Shown here: positions 20,351 to 26,938 of the stretch, piece after piece
How positions within the stretch are numbered: the first letter of the stretch is position 1
Layout of the letters: the number at the start of each line of letters is the position of its first letter
Assembly (NCBI RefSeq): GCF_000478195.2
Contig: NZ_AUZM01000005.1
Location: forward strand, 1-64,000
Direction of reading: 5' to 3'
Origin: Lyngbya aestuarii BL J
Lineage (GTDB): Bacteria; Cyanobacteriota; Cyanobacteriia; Cyanobacteriales; Microcoleaceae
Length of the DNA: 64,000 bases
Position numbers and translations under genes: made by a program
Notes under the pieces: model-generated
Told to the model about the DNA's origin: nothing
Databases searched by the model: none
The model's input: only the letters and a program-made list of their open reading frames with translations

Positions 20351-20666
20351 TCACAAATTATCAAAATCCTGCCAATCATTCAGGTTTTTAATTCGGTTAA
20401 CTGAACTTTGAAGTTCTTTTAACAAACTGTCTATTTTCTCAATCAATTCTCTGTCTTTGGCGTTTAATTTTCCCTTTTCAGCTTGAGTTTCTAACTGTGT
20501 ATTAGAAATAATAAACCGAATTAACGGCTCTAGTTCAGATAATTTTTCTAGCTGTAAACTCGTTAACTGTTCAAAAATATCCAGATAATTTGCAAAGTTT
20601 AAATCGCTAGGTAAATCATTATAATTGCTAAAATAATCGCTATCGTTAATGCGGCTTGAGTCGTCG
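20351..20666 (-). CDS. Start-less 105-codon frame joined by an A9 run to the upstream gene
   Basis: On the minus strand a frame open from just before the A9 run (20675-20667) to TGA at 20353-20351 encodes a charged, helical, convincing protein segment: DLPSDLNFANYLDIFEQL, later LEKLSELEPLIRFII and a coiled-coil-like ELIEKIDSLLKELQSSV. There is no ATG, GTG or TTG between the upstream in-frame TAG and this coding region. A -1 shift on the in-frame heptamer A AAA AAA within the A9 run of the preceding gene would fuse it to that gene, giving a product near 336 residues. Either programmed slippage or an assembly indel explains it. Confidence 0.55.
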
Positions 20667-21369
20667 TTTTTTTTTGGGAGGACAGAACTGATCTAGAAGT
20701 TGGAGATGCTATTAATTGATTGGTCTTTGAAATGATTTCCCATTCTTCATTTTCTATTCTATCGGATAAACCCCGCCAAACTCCCGACATACTTAAAGCA
20801 GATTTAGCTTTTAAGGTCGTGATAATTATCAAAAAACCATCTCTTAAAGGAATAGAATAGTTTTGCAGTTCTTTAGCCAATTCTTGTCGTAATTTTGCAG
20901 AATTTTTACCCAGTTTACAAGCGTTTTCTGCGGGTTTAGATGCGATTATTTTGGAAATCGCTAACTGTTCAATTGCGTCTTGTTCAACTTTAAAACCGTA
21001 TTCTCCACCGATGTTAATAGCTTTATCTATTTCTAATTCTAGTTCATTTTTTAACGCACGAATAGCGAGAGAACGTAATATATTTTCATGTTCTTCTGAG
21101 TCAGAATAAACCCAAGCGATAGAATTTCTAACGGAGCGACCCATAAAATCTGCACGTTCTTCTCTAGCTTTTAATCCCGTTACAAGTAAGAGAAATTCAG
21201 AATCTTGACGCGCAAGAATCATTGAAGGTTTTTGATGCTCGATAACAGTTTCAACAGGTACTCTTTTAAAAATTGGTGGAGTTTCACGAATCAGACTCTC
21301 TTTTCTGATTTTAAACCAAGAATAATCTTGATCTTCTTTTTGACCTCGACTGAGAATGTAAATTGTCAT
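20599..21369 (-). CDS. Third gene of the GTPase operon, predicted C-terminal membrane anchor
   Basis: This 256-residue protein is not recognised. Most of it is soluble and mixed in character, with two longer helical regions (RSLAIRALKNELELEIDKA and the region around KLGKNSAKLRQELAKEL). A flexible, serine-rich stretch (about 215-230) then leads to a hydrophobic tail AALTIAIILAIIMIYLAI, a predicted tail anchor. The tail lies wholly downstream of an A9 run (minus-strand 20675-20667). A -1 shift there would replace the hydrophobic tail with a 105-codon soluble helical extension. It lies 40 bases after the GTPase gene in the same operon. Its function is probably linked to the two GTPases. Confidence 0.65.
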   Translation of the reverse strand: MTIYILSRGQKEDQDYSWFKIRKESLIRETPPIFKRVPVETVIEHQKPSMILARQDSEFLLLVTGLKAREERADFMGRSVRNSIAWVYSDSEEHENILRSLAIRALKNELELEIDKAINIGGEYGFKVEQDAIEQLAISKIIASKPAENACKLGKNSAKLRQELAKELQNYSIPLRDGFLIIITTLKAKSALSMSGVWRGLSDRIENEEWEIISKTNQLIASPTSRSVLSSQKKTTTQAALTIAIILAIIMIYLAI

Positions 21370-21409
21370 CGTTATTTCCTCTAAACGTTCAAAGTGTGTT
21401 TAAATCAGT

Positions 21410-22405
21410 TTAAATTTTTAACCATTGTTCGCCTTTCAAAACCACAAAACCTTCGCTAGTTTTACAGTTATTGGCAAATTGTTTAACAGCAGTTCTCAGG
21501 TAAGCATCCAGACTAAACCAGTCTCGCAAAAAGTTAAAAACTCCCCAGCTTTTTGAACGAGAATCAAAATGTAATTTCAGCAAAAATCGCAAAAGATATC
21601 TTAAAGGTTGTTCACTGTCTTTCGGACTATATTGAGCATCATGTCGGGTTTTCCGAAAGTAGAAATGAGGATTTTTATGTTGATCATATTCTACCCGAGA
21701 AAAAATCACACTCCCCACCGTTTGAACCGGAGTAATAACACTCGCTATCCAAGGGCTAACTTTTTCAGAATCAAAAAATTGAATTAAATTTTCATAGCTT
21801 TTTTTCACCCGTTCTATTAACTCTTTTGCCTGTTGTTCATCTTTTAAATATTTCTCGCATTTTATCGGAGCAAAAATAACCAACCGGGGCGAATCAAGGT
21901 CTTGATAAGCCGCATTGAATAAGTCTTTAATTTGTTGGGGTCGATTCACTTTTTCGTTCAATATCCCTTTTGAATCTTCCATCAATGCCGGAGCATCAAT
22001 TGCAATTAAAACGGCTACAGATTCTCGCAACAGTTTTCTGACAAACTCTCTTTCTTCTTTGGAGGCTTGACTTCCTAAATAGCCGCCCGGATAATCTCTA
22101 AACCGCAGTTGTAAGGAAGGTTTTTCTCCTTTTCGACCCAAACCAAAGGTAAAAGAACGCAAAGAATCCGGGCCAGAAATGGCTTCTGTTCCTTGAATTC
22201 CCATTCTTCCTCTCGGTTCAAATACATCGAGTAAACTCTTGAGATCAACTAAGTTATCTTGCAAAATTGCCGAGCTTTCGTCGTCGGGAGTTAGCTGTAA
22301 ATCCGTCGAACCGATATTACTCTCAAACTGCTCATACATGGCGGTGATCAGGGTTGTTTTACCGACTCCACTAGGGCCGAGCATTGTAATTTGAAGTTCC
22401 TGCAT
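21410..22405 (-). CDS. Small TRAFAC-type GTPase of a multi-GTPase operon
   Basis: A 331-residue protein with the P-loop GPSGVGKTT (G10 to T18) at its N terminus and a G3-like DYPGGYL in FRDYPGGYLG. This resembles the double-GTPase/TRAFAC GTPases that occur in bacterial NTPase-based conflict or signalling operons, though the family match is from memory. The base-recognition motif is not clear: IFAPIKCEKY is the best candidate. It lacks membrane segments. It sits 12 bases after the dynamin-like gene, so the two are co-transcribed and probably act together. Confidence 0.75.
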   Translation of the reverse strand: MQELQITMLGPSGVGKTTLITAMYEQFESNIGSTDLQLTPDDESSAILQDNLVDLKSLLDVFEPRGRMGIQGTEAISGPDSLRSFTFGLGRKGEKPSLQLRFRDYPGGYLGSQASKEEREFVRKLLRESVAVLIAIDAPALMEDSKGILNEKVNRPQQIKDLFNAAYQDLDSPRLVIFAPIKCEKYLKDEQQAKELIERVKKSYENLIQFFDSEKVSPWIASVITPVQTVGSVIFSRVEYDQHKNPHFYFRKTRHDAQYSPKDSEQPLRYLLRFLLKLHFDSRSKSWGVFNFLRDWFSLDAYLRTAVKQFANNCKTSEGFVVLKGEQWLKI

Positions 22406-22417
22406 TTGTATCCTAAA

Positions 22418-24619
22418 TTAATCCAAAAAGGTGATTAAATTTAACTGGTTAGCTGCCGTTGCTCGTTCAACAGAATCCATCCATTCTCGTCGAGTTCGTG
22501 TTCGTTCTCCTAACTGTTCAAATTCGTTAGGCCAGACATCGTGACGAATTTCTTCTAAGAAAATACGCCATTCGTTTTTAACTTCTTTTGCTCGTAAGAC
22601 TCGATCCATAAATTCTTCTACGATAGCAAATCCGGCTTGACTCGGTTCGGCCAATAAATCATCTAAGGCGCGTTCGCATTTATAAACGGCTTCTGCTTGC
22701 AGAGATTTGAGACAATTTAAGACTTCTTGAGCGGTCGGAGAGGATGACAGTTGCAGTGAGGTTTCATCGGGGGTTAAATCATCAATATGTTGGCGGATTC
22801 GGTGTTGAATTAAACCTCGATAGGAAAGTTCAAAGTCGGCTAAAATTTGAAAGCCTCGCCACAATTCACTAGGTTTATTTTCGACGAGTTCTTCGGGAAT
22901 GAGTTCGGCAATTGTCTTGAGGAATTCTACCCCTCTACTCTCGGTTAAACCCGCCAAACGACCTCGCTCTATTAACACTTGAGCCACTTGAGATTTTACC
23001 CGATCTAATCCTCGTTTTAATCCTTCATCTAAAGAGAGAAAATGTTGAGATAAATGGGAGCGAACTTCGTTGAGATATTCATAATAAGCGTTGGGATAGC
23101 CGCCCACACTATCACGCTTGCGATTAATTTCGGCTTCGGTGGGAAGACCCGCATCTTCTCGACAGGCTTTAATGGTGTTTTCTACTTGTTGCTTGAAGTC
23201 GGCATCTTGTACATCCCGCTGTTCTCTGAGTTCTCGCAAAAGGGCTTCTAAACCCGTGGTTAAATCTTCCCAAAGTCGATCAAATAAGGTCACAAATAAG
23301 GGAAACCAATTGTCACGTCCGGTAACTCGTTCTAGAGCTTTTTCGGCTTTTTCGAGTTCGGAAGCAACGGTCTTTTGCAGTTGAATTAAACGGTCTTGGG
23401 TTGAGGAGGCGTATTCGGCATCTAAAGCCGACATTTTACTTGCTAAATAGTTAAGAATTCGCTCTAGAATTTGTTGATTGACGGTTTCTACATCCGCACA
23501 GTTGGCAATAATATGATCGACCACATATAAATGCTTTTCTTTGCGAGTATTTGCCAGGTCTTGACAGTAGAGGGAGTTGTCTCCAATTAAGGAGTTATTA
23601 TCGGTACGATTGAGAACAAGAAATGACCAAAGTTTGAGCGGGAGTTCAGTCAGTGCAGAACTGGCAATATCATACAGTTTAACATCAACATCTGCCCAAT
23701 ATTCTCTCGGGGGTCTAGGCATTCGCACAAATAAAACAATATCAACATCTTGTCCGAGGGTTTTGATTAATCGTTCTTCATCTCCGAGTCCGGTATCGCC
23801 TAATCCCGGCATATCAATTAAGGCTATTTGTCCGACATCGGAGTTGGGAAAAGTACAAACAATTTTGGCTTCTCGAACGGCTAAATAATTGACATGAACA
23901 CGATTTCCACTGGGATCATCTTGAGCAATATATTCTCGAATTTGAGACTTGGGAATGCGACGGGGCGAAGGTTCGTGAAACAAATGACGGTATTTTTCGA
24001 GGTTTGTATGGTAGCGACGCAAATGTTCGTACATCGCCCCACATTCTGCCTGTTTCGAGAGGTTTATCGGTAAATTTGGAAGGGGTTGGGTGGCAAATTC
24101 TTCTAAACTTAAAGGTTTGGCTCCCAGATAAAGTTTATCGTAATAAGGGGCAATGATTTCTTGTAAAAAACTTCGTTCGGTGTGAAACCAAACTTCTCCG
24201 TAGGTATCAACACTGGGGTTATGGTAAATTGTACTGCGAACTCCGGTACAATGTTGGCGATCGCCTGTGGGAATTTCCGAGGTTGTTAGACCGGATAAAC
24301 TTTGTAATAAACGGCTTTTTCCCTGTCCGGCCCGTCCGACCACACCAATATTTAAAGTATTACGAGAAAAACGTGATTTGAGTTGATTTAAAGCCAATAA
24401 TTCGGACTCAATACTTCTGTTGATTGACGAGCAATCTATTTCTTTCAAATCTCCACTCACATCAAAATCGTCAACTTGTGAAAGAAGCTGATTTCGGTGG
24501 TTTTGAAGACGATCCAATTGAGTGGAAAGTGACCTGAGATTCTTCTCAACTTTGTCGATTCTCAAGGCGAGAGGCTGACGTTGGTTAATAATGCTGGCAA
24601 TCTGGGCAGATCTATTCAT
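22418..24619 (-). CDS. Dynamin-like large GTPase
   Basis: A 733-residue protein that starts with a coiled coil (about 15-50). The GTPase domain has G1 GRAGQGKS (95-102), a G2 threonine in HCTGVRST, G3 LIDMPGLGDTG and a G4-like LNRTDNN. The rest is helical, as in the stalk of bacterial dynamin-like proteins. No obvious transmembrane segment is seen. Bacterial dynamins remodel membranes and some protect against phage lysis. This one heads an operon with a small GTPase and a tail-anchored protein, suggesting a regulated membrane-associated GTPase system. The role is inference. Confidence 0.8.
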   Translation of the reverse strand: MNRSAQIASIINQRQPLALRIDKVEKNLRSLSTQLDRLQNHRNQLLSQVDDFDVSGDLKEIDCSSINRSIESELLALNQLKSRFSRNTLNIGVVGRAGQGKSRLLQSLSGLTTSEIPTGDRQHCTGVRSTIYHNPSVDTYGEVWFHTERSFLQEIIAPYYDKLYLGAKPLSLEEFATQPLPNLPINLSKQAECGAMYEHLRRYHTNLEKYRHLFHEPSPRRIPKSQIREYIAQDDPSGNRVHVNYLAVREAKIVCTFPNSDVGQIALIDMPGLGDTGLGDEERLIKTLGQDVDIVLFVRMPRPPREYWADVDVKLYDIASSALTELPLKLWSFLVLNRTDNNSLIGDNSLYCQDLANTRKEKHLYVVDHIIANCADVETVNQQILERILNYLASKMSALDAEYASSTQDRLIQLQKTVASELEKAEKALERVTGRDNWFPLFVTLFDRLWEDLTTGLEALLRELREQRDVQDADFKQQVENTIKACREDAGLPTEAEINRKRDSVGGYPNAYYEYLNEVRSHLSQHFLSLDEGLKRGLDRVKSQVAQVLIERGRLAGLTESRGVEFLKTIAELIPEELVENKPSELWRGFQILADFELSYRGLIQHRIRQHIDDLTPDETSLQLSSSPTAQEVLNCLKSLQAEAVYKCERALDDLLAEPSQAGFAIVEEFMDRVLRAKEVKNEWRIFLEEIRHDVWPNEFEQLGERTRTRREWMDSVERATAANQLNLITFLD

Positions 24620-24771: not shown

Positions 24772-24778
24772 AAGGAGG
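24772..24778 (+). promoter_or_regulatory. Strong ribosome binding site deciding a TTG start
   Basis: AAGGAGG at 24772-24778 overlaps the GTG at 24778, which therefore cannot be the start. The TTG at 24787 is correctly spaced (8 bases). Confidence 0.75.
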
Positions 24779-24786
24779 TGTCTCTC

Positions 24787-25647
24787 TTGAGTTCATTTAG
24801 TGAGTATAAACCTAGAGCTTCTCAGTATATCACATTCATGGATTCTGAGTTTTATCCTGACTATCTTGATGAAGCAAATACTATTTATGGCAGTGTTATA
24901 GAAGAGTTTGCAAACTTAGCTAACAAAGCTAGCAACTCTGCAAATTTACTGAGAAGTATTACTGAAATTCCCAATCCATCTAGAACACAATTACTGCGCG
25001 TCTTCCGTAAATATGTATCACCAGATACTTCGGTTGAGATGTTAAAGGTCAAAAGAAGAATTTCCAGCATCATTGAAGACTATGGGCATCGATTTAGAGA
25101 TATAGAAGAAGTTAGAGAAAAATTAGCAAGCCGTCCTAATCCTGATGAAGCATTAATGGCTATTCTAATGGAATATAAGAGCCGGGGACAGAAAGGATAT
25201 GAATTAACAGAAGCATTTTTCCTGTGGTTTGAAAAAAACTTTGGAGCGGAGTATCTAATTCAAGGCCCTGTAGGTGCAGGAAGAGATATAATGCTCAATG
25301 AAGTATTAGAAAATTGGGCAATACAAACACCAGCAGACATTCTAATTTCTCGGACTGATAAAACTCCTTTGGTTATTGGATTTGCACGCTACGATTCAGA
25401 TCGAGGGGGAGCGCAGGAAGATGATCGCATTGGTGGCAATAGAGATAAGGTGACAGATATTCTCCAGTACGCAAATACTTACGATCTTCCTCTAAAAGTG
25501 TTCTTTTTAAATGATGGCCCCGGATTAACTCTTGGATCAATGTGGAATGATTATGCCTCCCTAGAATATTATGGACAAGGAAGAGTTCTAGTTTGTACTC
25601 TGAAAATGTTAGATGAAAGATTTACCAGAGATTGGCTTGAAAGTTAA
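24787..25647 (+). CDS. Putative type II restriction endonuclease
   Basis: From the TTG at 24787, set by the strong ribosome binding site, this protein is 286 residues. I cannot assign a named family, but the C-terminal half has the look of a restriction enzyme: TPADILISRTDKTPLVIGFARYD supplies a possible PD-type acidic residue and core strands, followed by DRGGAQEDDRIGGNRDKV, a pattern I associate with type II endonucleases. The usual ExK is not evident. Its neighbour, overlapping tail-to-tail, is a beta-class DNA methyltransferase, the normal partner of a type II system. AT-rich relative to chlH. The function rests mainly on context. Confidence 0.68.
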   Translation: MSSFSEYKPRASQYITFMDSEFYPDYLDEANTIYGSVIEEFANLANKASNSANLLRSITEIPNPSRTQLLRVFRKYVSPDTSVEMLKVKRRISSIIEDYGHRFRDIEEVREKLASRPNPDEALMAILMEYKSRGQKGYELTEAFFLWFEKNFGAEYLIQGPVGAGRDIMLNEVLENWAIQTPADILISRTDKTPLVIGFARYDSDRGGAQEDDRIGGNRDKVTDILQYANTYDLPLKVFFLNDGPGLTLGSMWNDYASLEYYGQGRVLVCTLKMLDERFTRDWLES

Positions 25648-26938
25648 GTTGTTTATCCCAATCTTCAATCAGAGTTTCTGGAACTTCCTCAAGATCTGAT
25701 GCGATCTCCAAATATAAATCAAGCCCCCGTCGCAAAATTCTATTCGTATTGAACAGAGACTCTTGTTTGGGTTGATTTCCATTATTATTAACAAAGTCAC
25801 CCATTGCTTCAGTTCCTTTAATCAAGCGATGAATTGTTGTTTTTATTGCCAAAAGTGAATTATCTATCCCTACCCATTGTCTTTCTAATTCTTCCGCAAC
25901 CGCCACTGTTGTTCCACTTCCCAGGAAAGCATCTAATATCAGATCTCCTGGATTAGAAGAAGCCAAAATAATTCGCTTAATTAAATCAGGATTCTTTTCC
26001 GTTGGATAACCTGTAATCTTAATATTTTGATTGTGAGCATCCTTGAATTCAAGCCATATATCTTGAACGGCAATACCCTTACTATTATCAAGATATATTT
26101 TCCTTCTAGGATTACCTGTTGGAGACCAATAAATTTCACCTCTTTTATCCATCTCATCTAAAACTTCAGGAGGATATTGCCAATGTTTACCCGGTGGCGG
26201 AAGCATTCCTTTCCAAGCTTGACCTGTTGCACCTTTTCTCTGACCTGGAGCATGAACAGGAACTTTTTTGTACCGTCTTCCTGTCTCTTCTTCTATATAC
26301 TGATATTCTTTTTTCGCTTTGGCATCTGTCCAAGATTCAAAGGGTTGATTCCACACATAATCATCACTTTTTGTATAGAAAAGGATATAATCTGATATAT
26401 TTCCATACTGTTTGCGCGTGAAGTTTTTTGGGTTACATTTTTTGCGAGTAATCCAATTTCTAAAATTCTTTGCTCCAAAAATCTCGTCCATTAAGATTTT
26501 GACCGGAAAAGCCATCTTTTCATCTAGATGAACATATATAGACCCATGATTTGCTAATATTTCTCGTAGTAAAATCAATCGTTGACGTATAAACTCTAAA
26601 TAATCTGCTCCATCAATTAAATCGTTGTAAGCATGGGTTTGATTTCTGGACTCAAAGCCAAATCCAGTCGCGTAAGGAGGATCGATGTAAATTAATCCCA
26701 CTTTCCCTAAAATATTAGGATCATCTAATAAAGTTCTAAGCACTCTCAGATTTTCCCCATATACTAGGTAACTTTTCGGTTGTTTTTTCACGCGAGCAAC
26801 ACAACGTAACTGAGCGGGAGGCGTTTGAAATATATCTTCAGTAGAAACTTTTCCTTCATACTCCAAGCGAAATGATAGCTTACTGTTGTTTTTTAAGCTA
26901 CCTTGAGATTGATTTTGATGAGGTATACCTGTTGCCAT
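25622..26938 (-). CDS. Site-specific DNA methyltransferase (beta class, DPPY)
   Basis: A 438-residue amino-methyltransferase. The catalytic motif DPPY (86-89, in LIYIDPPYATGF) precedes the AdoMet-binding motif FLGSGTT (338-344), the motif order of the beta class. DPPY usually means N6-adenine methylation, though N4-cytosine is possible. The long segment between the motifs (about 160-335) would contain the target recognition region. The 3' end overlaps the + strand endonuclease gene by 26 bases, a compact convergent restriction-modification pair. The start MATGIPHQNQSQ is at 26938. The recognition sequence cannot be read from the protein. Confidence 0.88.
   Translation of the reverse strand: MATGIPHQNQSQGSLKNNSKLSFRLEYEGKVSTEDIFQTPPAQLRCVARVKKQPKSYLVYGENLRVLRTLLDDPNILGKVGLIYIDPPYATGFGFESRNQTHAYNDLIDGADYLEFIRQRLILLREILANHGSIYVHLDEKMAFPVKILMDEIFGAKNFRNWITRKKCNPKNFTRKQYGNISDYILFYTKSDDYVWNQPFESWTDAKAKKEYQYIEEETGRRYKKVPVHAPGQRKGATGQAWKGMLPPPGKHWQYPPEVLDEMDKRGEIYWSPTGNPRRKIYLDNSKGIAVQDIWLEFKDAHNQNIKITGYPTEKNPDLIKRIILASSNPGDLILDAFLGSGTTVAVAEELERQWVGIDNSLLAIKTTIHRLIKGTEAMGDFVNNNGNQPKQESLFNTNRILRRGLDLYLEIASDLEEVPETLIEDWDKQLNFQANLW

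Follow-up and report, generated by a model that had tools for sequence, protein, structure and literature searches.

Alternative C-termini of the third protein of a cyanobacterial GTPase-dynamin operon point to programmed recoding between a membrane anchor and a soluble tail

Introduction

Does the third gene of a GTPase operon in Lyngbya aestuarii BL J encode one protein or two? The operon lies on the minus strand of the 64,000-nucleotide stretch of DNA that we analyzed, hereafter the window (positions 1 to 64,000 of contig NZ_AUZM01000005.1, assembly GCF_000478195.2). A first-pass annotation, made from the sequence alone, had described it as two GTPases, one dynamin-like and one of TRAFAC type, accompanied by a tail-anchored protein for which two C-termini are possible. 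All three open reading frames (ORFs) are present at the sizes given there, with intergenic gaps of 12 and 40 bases. The first gene, g1 (22418-24619, minus strand), encodes the 733-residue dynamin-like GTPase; g2 (21410-22405, minus strand) encodes a 331-residue, TRAFAC-type GTPase resembling DO-GTPase2, with the P-loop GPSGVGKTT; and g3 (20599-21369, minus strand, frame 0) encodes a protein of 256 residues. The description as a three-gene operon was borne out, and the alternative tail of the third protein recurs across species. We propose that g3 encodes a GTPase partner and that programmed recoding very probably lets this single gene yield both an anchored and a soluble form. This proposal draws its sequence support from the recurrent operon, the recurrent slip sites, the selected -1 tail and the predicted anchor.

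Results

Two C-termini of g3 in the window

At position 20351 it is the -1 frame of g3, rather than its frame-0 gene, that terminates. Frame 0 ends 24 codons past the slip codon, after a hydrophobic segment. The putative recoding site is a run of nine A residues (CAA AAA AAA ACG on the minus strand; 20667-20675), which contains the in-frame heptamer A_AAA_AAA (20668-20674). Standard decoding would yield an N-terminal alpha/beta domain followed by a C-terminal membrane anchor, which is predicted at frame-0 residues 236-255 (20605-20664, minus strand) from a helix in the structural model and from hydropathy (best 18-residue mean 2.88). A one-base slip at the nine-A run would instead shift decoding into the -1 frame, so that the anchor is skipped and a soluble helical tail of 107 codons plus stop is added (20351-20674, minus strand). 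The predicted products are thus an anchored protein of 256 residues and a trans-frame protein of 339 residues. In an AlphaFold model of the tail (mean predicted local distance difference test, pLDDT, 79.6; predicted template modelling score, pTM, 0.57), tail residues 27-98 (20381-20596, minus strand) form three helices, and the ten-residue blocks of residues 31-100 average 78 to 98. The model matched nothing in the PDB better than E 2.4, a result that does not tell a new fold from a known one, and each of the 25 Pfam models listed (of 29) fits one of 27 tails, with a best E of 0.003.

If the tail were a separate overlapping gene, it should have its own start codon. In the window, the open -1 frame starts 6 codons ahead of the slip site, past which the tail has no ATG or GTG; its first TTG is codon 76, within the helical part. 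In 27 tails (loci are denoted below by L-numbers), the -1 ORF opens 2-20 codons before the slip site, and a check covering ATG and GTG found an in-frame start there in 3. Early in-frame ATG or GTG codons do occur at codon 4 of L036 and L117, at about codon 20 of L131 and L132, and just upstream of the slip site in L211, L109 and L193. However, a separate gene would leave the slippery heptamers described below unexplained, and we consider it very improbable. Because the tail mostly lacks a start codon of its own, ordinary gene calling would miss it; an unrecognized protein domain is therefore probably present in many cyanobacterial genomes.

The -1 tail is conserved as protein

Nonsynonymous substitution rates (dN) were lower than synonymous rates (dS) past the frame-0 stop, where -1 is the sole frame, in all seven pairs computed (dN/dS values of 0.10/0.94, 0.22/1.17, 0.21/1.12, 0.12/0.79, 0.31/1.04, 0.41/1.13 and 0.33/1.77; L037 and L067 each contribute to two pairs, and L072/L128 was left out, L128 having no A-run). 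The tail past the frame-0 stop is under purifying selection as protein. A profile built from 17 rows of a 27-row tail alignment, which omits L035, L103, L104, L105, L148 and L210, was then run on open stretches of at least 25 residues in three frames of the g3 genes. At E<0.01 it matched -1 frames exclusively, and the matches include eight genes that were not in the build: L180, L128, L148, L035, L132, L140, L193 and L108. By eye, the longer -1 tails of L118, L132 and L211 (261, 165 and 174 codons) resemble a duplicated helical domain.

These results bear on whether the anchor is an accident of decay, g3 having formerly ended in the helical tail until a frameshift mutation left a hydrophobic frame-0 end. 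The frame-0 stop only 24 codons past the slip codon in the window is what such a history would leave. Yet a frame-0 C-terminal hydrophobic segment was present in 96 of the 111 g3 genes, including clades that have no tail, and the tail is selected where it is the sole frame. Decay is highly improbable. The set of 111 retained one copy from loci with two g3 genes, and copies shorter than about 195-200 residues or identical over the first 215 residues had been dropped. Five members (L065, L066, L135, L136 and L143) join the g3 N-terminal domain to long frame-0 extensions, in which we noted by eye repeat-like stretches (L065, L066, L135), long repeats (L136, 743 residues) and pentapeptide-like repeats (L143). 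In L093, g3 seems to be cut after residue 217, just before the anchor, by what by eye resembles the start of an insertion-sequence transposase.

Runs of nine A residues are enriched in g3

When the g3 relatives were read in three frames, one pattern kept returning: an A run immediately precedes the anchor, and from this run the -1 frame leads into a related tail of helices. Runs of at least nine A residues numbered 38 in 106 g3 genes (32,518 codons) versus 7 in 629 control ORFs from the same loci (266,139 codons), a 44-fold enrichment. Counts for run lengths 6 to 10 fell steadily in the controls (535, 143, 35, 5 and 2), and only the g3 genes had a second peak at nine (111, 51, 13, 34 and 4). 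Synonymous shuffling within genes gave an expectation of 14.7 of 105 genes with such a run against 33 observed, and none of 500 shuffles was as high (maximum 24); because the shuffles already expect 14.7, part of the enrichment stems from lysine-rich, A-rich coding. The 3′ part of g3 contains 35 runs of nine or more A residues; 22 of them lead into a -1 frame open for at least 60 codons and 1 into a +1 frame of that length, and the median open lengths of the two frames are 107 and 8 codons, respectively.

Homopolymers of this kind might also serve as switching tracts. According to excerpts of PMC3711429, poly-A runs can slip in replication too, and cells would then alternate between anchored and tailed g3 as the nine-A run mutates. 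L090, with ten A residues at codons 213-215, has a default frame that lacks the anchor and a -1 frame that contains it, the reverse of its nine-A relative L091. A switching tract should vary in length, however, and of the 22 tail-bearing genes that were counted in the A-run clade, 21 have exactly nine A residues. Moreover, a second tail-bearing clade has no long homopolymer and instead carries a heptamer and a hairpin. Phase variation is accordingly improbable as the reason for the two ends, and programmed recoding is preferred.

Frameshift signals appear to differ between lineages

An in-frame heptamer of the form X_XXY_YYZ precedes the anchor in 26 of 27 tail-bearing genes (a count that omits L035, L103, L105 and L210) and also in L211, which was found later. 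In a tree of the 111 g3 N-terminal domains, the tail-bearing genes fall in two groups within a group of 53 rows (support 84/93). One is dominated by the nine-A run (27 rows, modest support 88/67), whereas the other lacks it (5 rows, support 100/99). In the 5-row group, A_AAA_AAG and A_AAT_TTT alternate between sisters (L072/L128 and L132/L140) while the tail is kept, and a hairpin begins a few bases past the heptamer. Judged from these sequences, the same switch appears to rely on distinct frameshift signals in different lineages.

We compared folding in the 48 bases past the heptamer, a window chosen once the hairpins had already been seen; the mean z-score was -3.9 for the 5-row group, -0.05 for 22 A-run genes and -0.21 for 60 anchor-only controls. 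Mean folding free energies (dG) over the same bases were -19.6, -5.9 and -6.0, respectively. Four of the five genes were at or below -20 and L132 was at -13.7, whereas none of the 60 controls was as low as -15; the g3 gene of the window gave -2.3. Some of the hairpins use the palindrome GCGATCGC. Because this palindrome is common in cyanobacterial genomes, we put no weight on each hairpin alone. Canonical -1 ribosomal frameshifting on heptamer and hairpin is the favored mechanism in the 5-row group.

In the A-run clade, neither the 80-base nor the 48-base folds revealed a conserved stimulatory hairpin on average, and inspection by eye of the sequence upstream of the slip site found no clear conserved Shine-Dalgarno-like stimulator. 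RNA polymerase slips efficiently on runs of nine A or nine T in bacteria (excerpts of PMC5009743), and in another gene reporter frameshifting reached 10%, 40% and 63% for 7, 9 and 11 A residues (excerpts of PMC3711429). Since the run is exactly nine in 21 of 22 genes, an average hairpin is absent and slippage on nine A is published, the slip in the clade of the window would most likely occur by RNA polymerase on the nine-A run, that is, by transcriptional slippage. A direct ribosomal slip on A_AAA_AAA could act as an alternative or in addition. In favor of the ribosome acting in place of RNA polymerase, every one of the 22 A-run genes counted carries the heptamer in frame, and L041 has just seven A residues. 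Against it, 21 of the 22 genes have a run of exactly nine and not seven, and the hairpin that marks the other clade is missing on average. We view it as an unlikely, though serious, explanation for this clade, and continue to favor transcriptional slippage there.

Besides the contribution of lysine-rich coding and the after-the-fact choice of the 48-base window, several observations weigh against the recoding model or against its individual signals. Many related clades have the anchor and no long -1 frame, and L105 has the nine-A run but a -1 frame of only 62 codons. L148 bears a tail and lacks a usable heptamer. The tail profile gave L106 only E=0.045 and missed L121 and L126, whose -1 frames are long and divergent, and the related piece in L035 sits past several -1 stops, such that a further indel would be needed. 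As for the hairpins, a pass over 80 bases gave z-scores of -4.40, -5.19, -1.90 and -0.55 for the four genes of the hairpin clade then known, and values below -1.5 were also obtained for two genes of the A-run clade (L040, -2.99; L047, -1.75). Synonymous shuffles clearly backed the hairpin in two of five genes (as low in 0 of 300 shuffles for L211 and 4 of 300 for L140), with weaker results for L128 (18 of 300), L072 (33 of 300) and L132 (57 of 300).

Other g3 relatives carry heptamers in different settings. In L100, L101 and L086 (about codons 197-262), A_AAA_AAG is followed by short -1 tails that may represent further recoding; those of L100 and L101 (46 and 37 codons) resemble amphipathic helices, and L086 has a related stretch in two pieces. 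In L050-L053, L141, L142 and L166, A_AAA_AAG occurs at codon 235 and, as in Escherichia coli dnaX, is followed by a -1 stop 3-4 codons on, here just before the anchor; a shift there would give an anchorless short form.

A possible +1 version of the switch

A third clade (L075, L079, L161, L085, L088 and L092; support 100/98) carries TTT_CGN in frame 0 before the anchor in all six members, and a search for further members found none beyond these six. Its +1 frames span 36 to 57 codons, look by eye like an amphipathic helix and end within two codons of the anchor start. The same codon pair precedes +1 tails of 29 and 41 codons in L094 and L107. TTT_CGN resembles the +1 frameshift site of influenza PA-X; in this candidate clade the conserved codon pair stands where the alternative frame begins, and the genes are unrelated.

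For L079/L085 and L161/L085 the +1 frame gave dN/dS values of 0.10/0.35 and 0.07/0.41, while frame 0 gave 0.20/0.08 and 0.20/0.03. The +1 frame is thus the constrained one in these pairs, because its dN is below dS while the reverse holds in frame 0; L079 and L161 are near-identical, so that the two pairs amount to one independent comparison. L085/L088 showed the opposite (0.47/0.68 in the +1 frame and 0.30/0.64 in frame 0), L075/L092 was neutral, and the remaining pairs were too close, saturated or badly aligned to decide. The frequency of TTT_CGN in the linker was only 2.3 times that of codons 1-200, and +1 frames of at least 36 codons start at 6.4% of all linker codons. We treat a +1 version of the switch as a possible lead from sequence comparison. 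That one family switches between anchor and soluble tail with at least three signals (nine-A -1, heptamer and hairpin -1, and TTT_CGN +1) is a tentative view to which we give slightly less than an even chance, because clear support for selection acting on the +1 frame comes from only one independent comparison.

Structure and proposed role of g3

The AlphaFold model of frame-0 g3 (mean pLDDT 92.2, pTM 0.83) comprises a globular alpha/beta domain at about residues 1-222, a low-confidence stretch at 224-233 that coincides with the slip site, and the anchor helix at 236-255. The g3 protein of the window matched no family above cut-off in Pfam, NCBIfam or PADLOC. When 33 relatives were compared with Pfam, every weak match was confined to a single member (best E 0.0068), and the best E for a g3 profile against PDB sequences was 0.031. 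A Foldseek search with the model returned nothing at E<=0.001. Structure comparison placed an Asgard roadblock-longin domain, folliculin and GATOR1 complexes, the Lst4 longin domain and TagF at the top, with Z-scores of 4.0-5.2. We take the folliculin and GATOR1 chains to be longin-type. With these longin-type GTPase partners g3 has in common a weak fold resemblance and the pairing with a small GTPase, but its scores are below the level of kinship and may reflect only a common arrangement. Even the best match (Z 5.2 over 122 residues, root-mean-square deviation 4.3) is weak, a point to be set against reading g3 as a GTPase platform.

Given a small GTPase (g2) and a dynamin-like protein (g1), a platform model is the most economical. 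Anchored g3 would act as a membrane platform for g2, which would control the recruitment or activity of g1, and soluble g3 would set the off-membrane share of the complex or link the complex to another partner. That both g3 products are made is an inference, as are the proportion between them, the contacts that g3 would make with g2 and g1, and the cellular role.

Relation to known systems

Recoding that yields two products is of a known kind. Programmed -1 frameshifting in dnaX of E. coli and Thermus thermophilus, and transcriptional slippage on a nine-base run, are described in excerpts of PMC3711429 and PMC5009743. Like dnaX, g3 would give two products with a common N-terminus from A_AAA_AAG or a nine-base run, by the same two recoding routes. 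Unlike dnaX, where one product is a shorter polymerase subunit, both g3 frames seem to encode functional ends, one an anchor and the other a soluble helical tail.

Frameshifting in the alphavirus structural polyprotein (excerpts of PMC8682741) and slippage in the Ebola glycoprotein gene, which decides between a soluble and a transmembrane form (excerpts of PMC5009743), alter a viral protein in a comparable way. In g3, too, recoding would alter the C-terminus, but g3 belongs to a bacterial operon, and we claim no sequence relation. The alphavirus frameshift product is known as 6K/TF.

The nearest described gene sets are the DO-GTPase systems (excerpts of PMC7159879), with which the operon has in common a g2 near DO-GTPase2, a partner gene after the GTPase gene and a link to the membrane. 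The downstream partner there, GAP1, has three domains, whereas g3 has one globular domain in its model and no Pfam match. Thus g3 is not recognized as GAP1, and a dynamin-like gene is added. The main text of that paper on systems with GAP1 contains neither 'dynamin' nor 'frameshift'. Our literature searches turned up neither the operon nor its recoding, although the 134 further candidate clusters mentioned in excerpts of PMC3711429 may include them, and the searches turned up no bacterial chromosomal gene described as toggling a membrane anchor by such recoding.

To our knowledge, bacterial chromosomal genes that use recoding to produce two functional C-termini are few outside mobile elements. 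If the tentative three-signal view is correct, the conserved trait would be the existence of a choice of C-terminus rather than its sequence, and recoding would serve as a built-in divider between membrane and cytosol for a cyanobacterial GTPase-dynamin machine. Relatives that reach the same outcome with different signals would allow one to ask directly what is selected, namely the ratio of the two products. The family also opens a way into a GTPase-dynamin operon that is so far unstudied.

Distribution and transfer of the operon

Family assignments of the two GTPases rest in part on matches just under Pfam cut-offs. The g1 protein scored 25.7 bits against Dynamin_N (E=1.3e-5, cut-off 27 bits) and 23.3 bits against MMR_HSR1, over the cut-off of 21.9, and its assignment rests also on co-occurrence with g2 and g3. 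The g2 protein of the window scored 25.6 bits against PF19993 (E=1.2e-5), likewise under a 27-bit cut-off; 16 of 17 aligned g2 proteins, this copy included, matched the family at E<=0.001 (best 2.5e-10). A scan of the operon for promoters and terminators gave counts near those of shuffled sequence.

A g3 search across 243 genomes from the order found relatives in 75. The three genes mostly stay together rather than occurring separately in most genomes, in agreement with the operon described at the outset: of 78 other loci, all picked by a g3 match, 68 had all three genes, 6 had g2 and g3, 3 had g3 alone and 1 had g1 and g2, several of the incomplete ones lying near contig ends. Wide flanks were taken for all but 7 of the 92 listed g3 places.

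Within the family to which L. aestuarii belongs, g2 was found at E<=1e-20 in 19 of 61 genomes. The closest copies are outside that family (77% identical in L116 and 76% in L118), whereas other listed copies from the same family are at most 56% identical. Because of this discrepancy we conclude that the operon has probably moved between lineages. A plasmid search with g2 returned 3 records only. Two g2 relatives from Pseudonocardia (L157 and L158) are 43% identical, and tblastn found no g3 in the stretch taken.

Is the operon a defence system?

The operon might serve in phage defence or biological conflict, with g3 acting as its regulator. Its patchy and seemingly transferred distribution is in keeping with this, as is the description of DO-GTPases as core parts of predicted conflict systems (excerpts of PMC7159879), and individual ORFs in the flanks hit defence families, Cas12f and DrmD among them. 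Uma2 was matched by 11 of 122 flanking ORFs, a figure that has no control set. An accessory or defence role would be compatible with the patchy spread and the gene transfer but is not demonstrated by them.

The first-pass annotation had also inferred a defence neighbourhood from a bordering restriction-modification pair (24778-26938), which is divergent from the operon. This inference was not supported: a homologue of the pair (E<=1e-5) was present in 0 of 78 other loci, up to about 7 kb on each side, and we judge the pair to be outside the system. The pair itself is plausible. The protein encoded at 25622-26938 (minus strand) matched the PADLOC type II methyltransferase model at E=8e-146, but its partner ORF (24778-25647, plus strand) had no PADLOC or NCBIfam match at E<=0.1 and only one weak, sub-threshold Pfam model (E=0.093).

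Enrichment of defence genes was sought in the flanks of 67 loci, in which 122 of 224 ORFs were scanned (11 near-duplicate loci and ORFs longer than 700 residues were skipped), with 122 of 145 ORFs from 20 random stretches as controls. Flanks showed no clear excess over random stretches among the top 25 PADLOC models listed, on which this comparison rests, and the 25 commonest of the 160 Pfam families matched in the 122 flanking ORFs do not include GAP1. A defence island was set aside, the restriction-modification neighbours being unconserved and the scan giving no clear excess, and a defence role for the operon itself appears doubtful.

Dynamin-like paralogues in the same genome

The genome of L. 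aestuarii BL J contains two further g1-like genes, and the surroundings of both gave no match to the g2, g3 or restriction-modification queries. One (L003, contig C2, 598-3333, minus strand) encodes a protein of 911 residues whose extra C-terminal part looks FHA-like by eye. The other (L002, 1492-3738, minus strand) encodes a protein 55% identical to g1.

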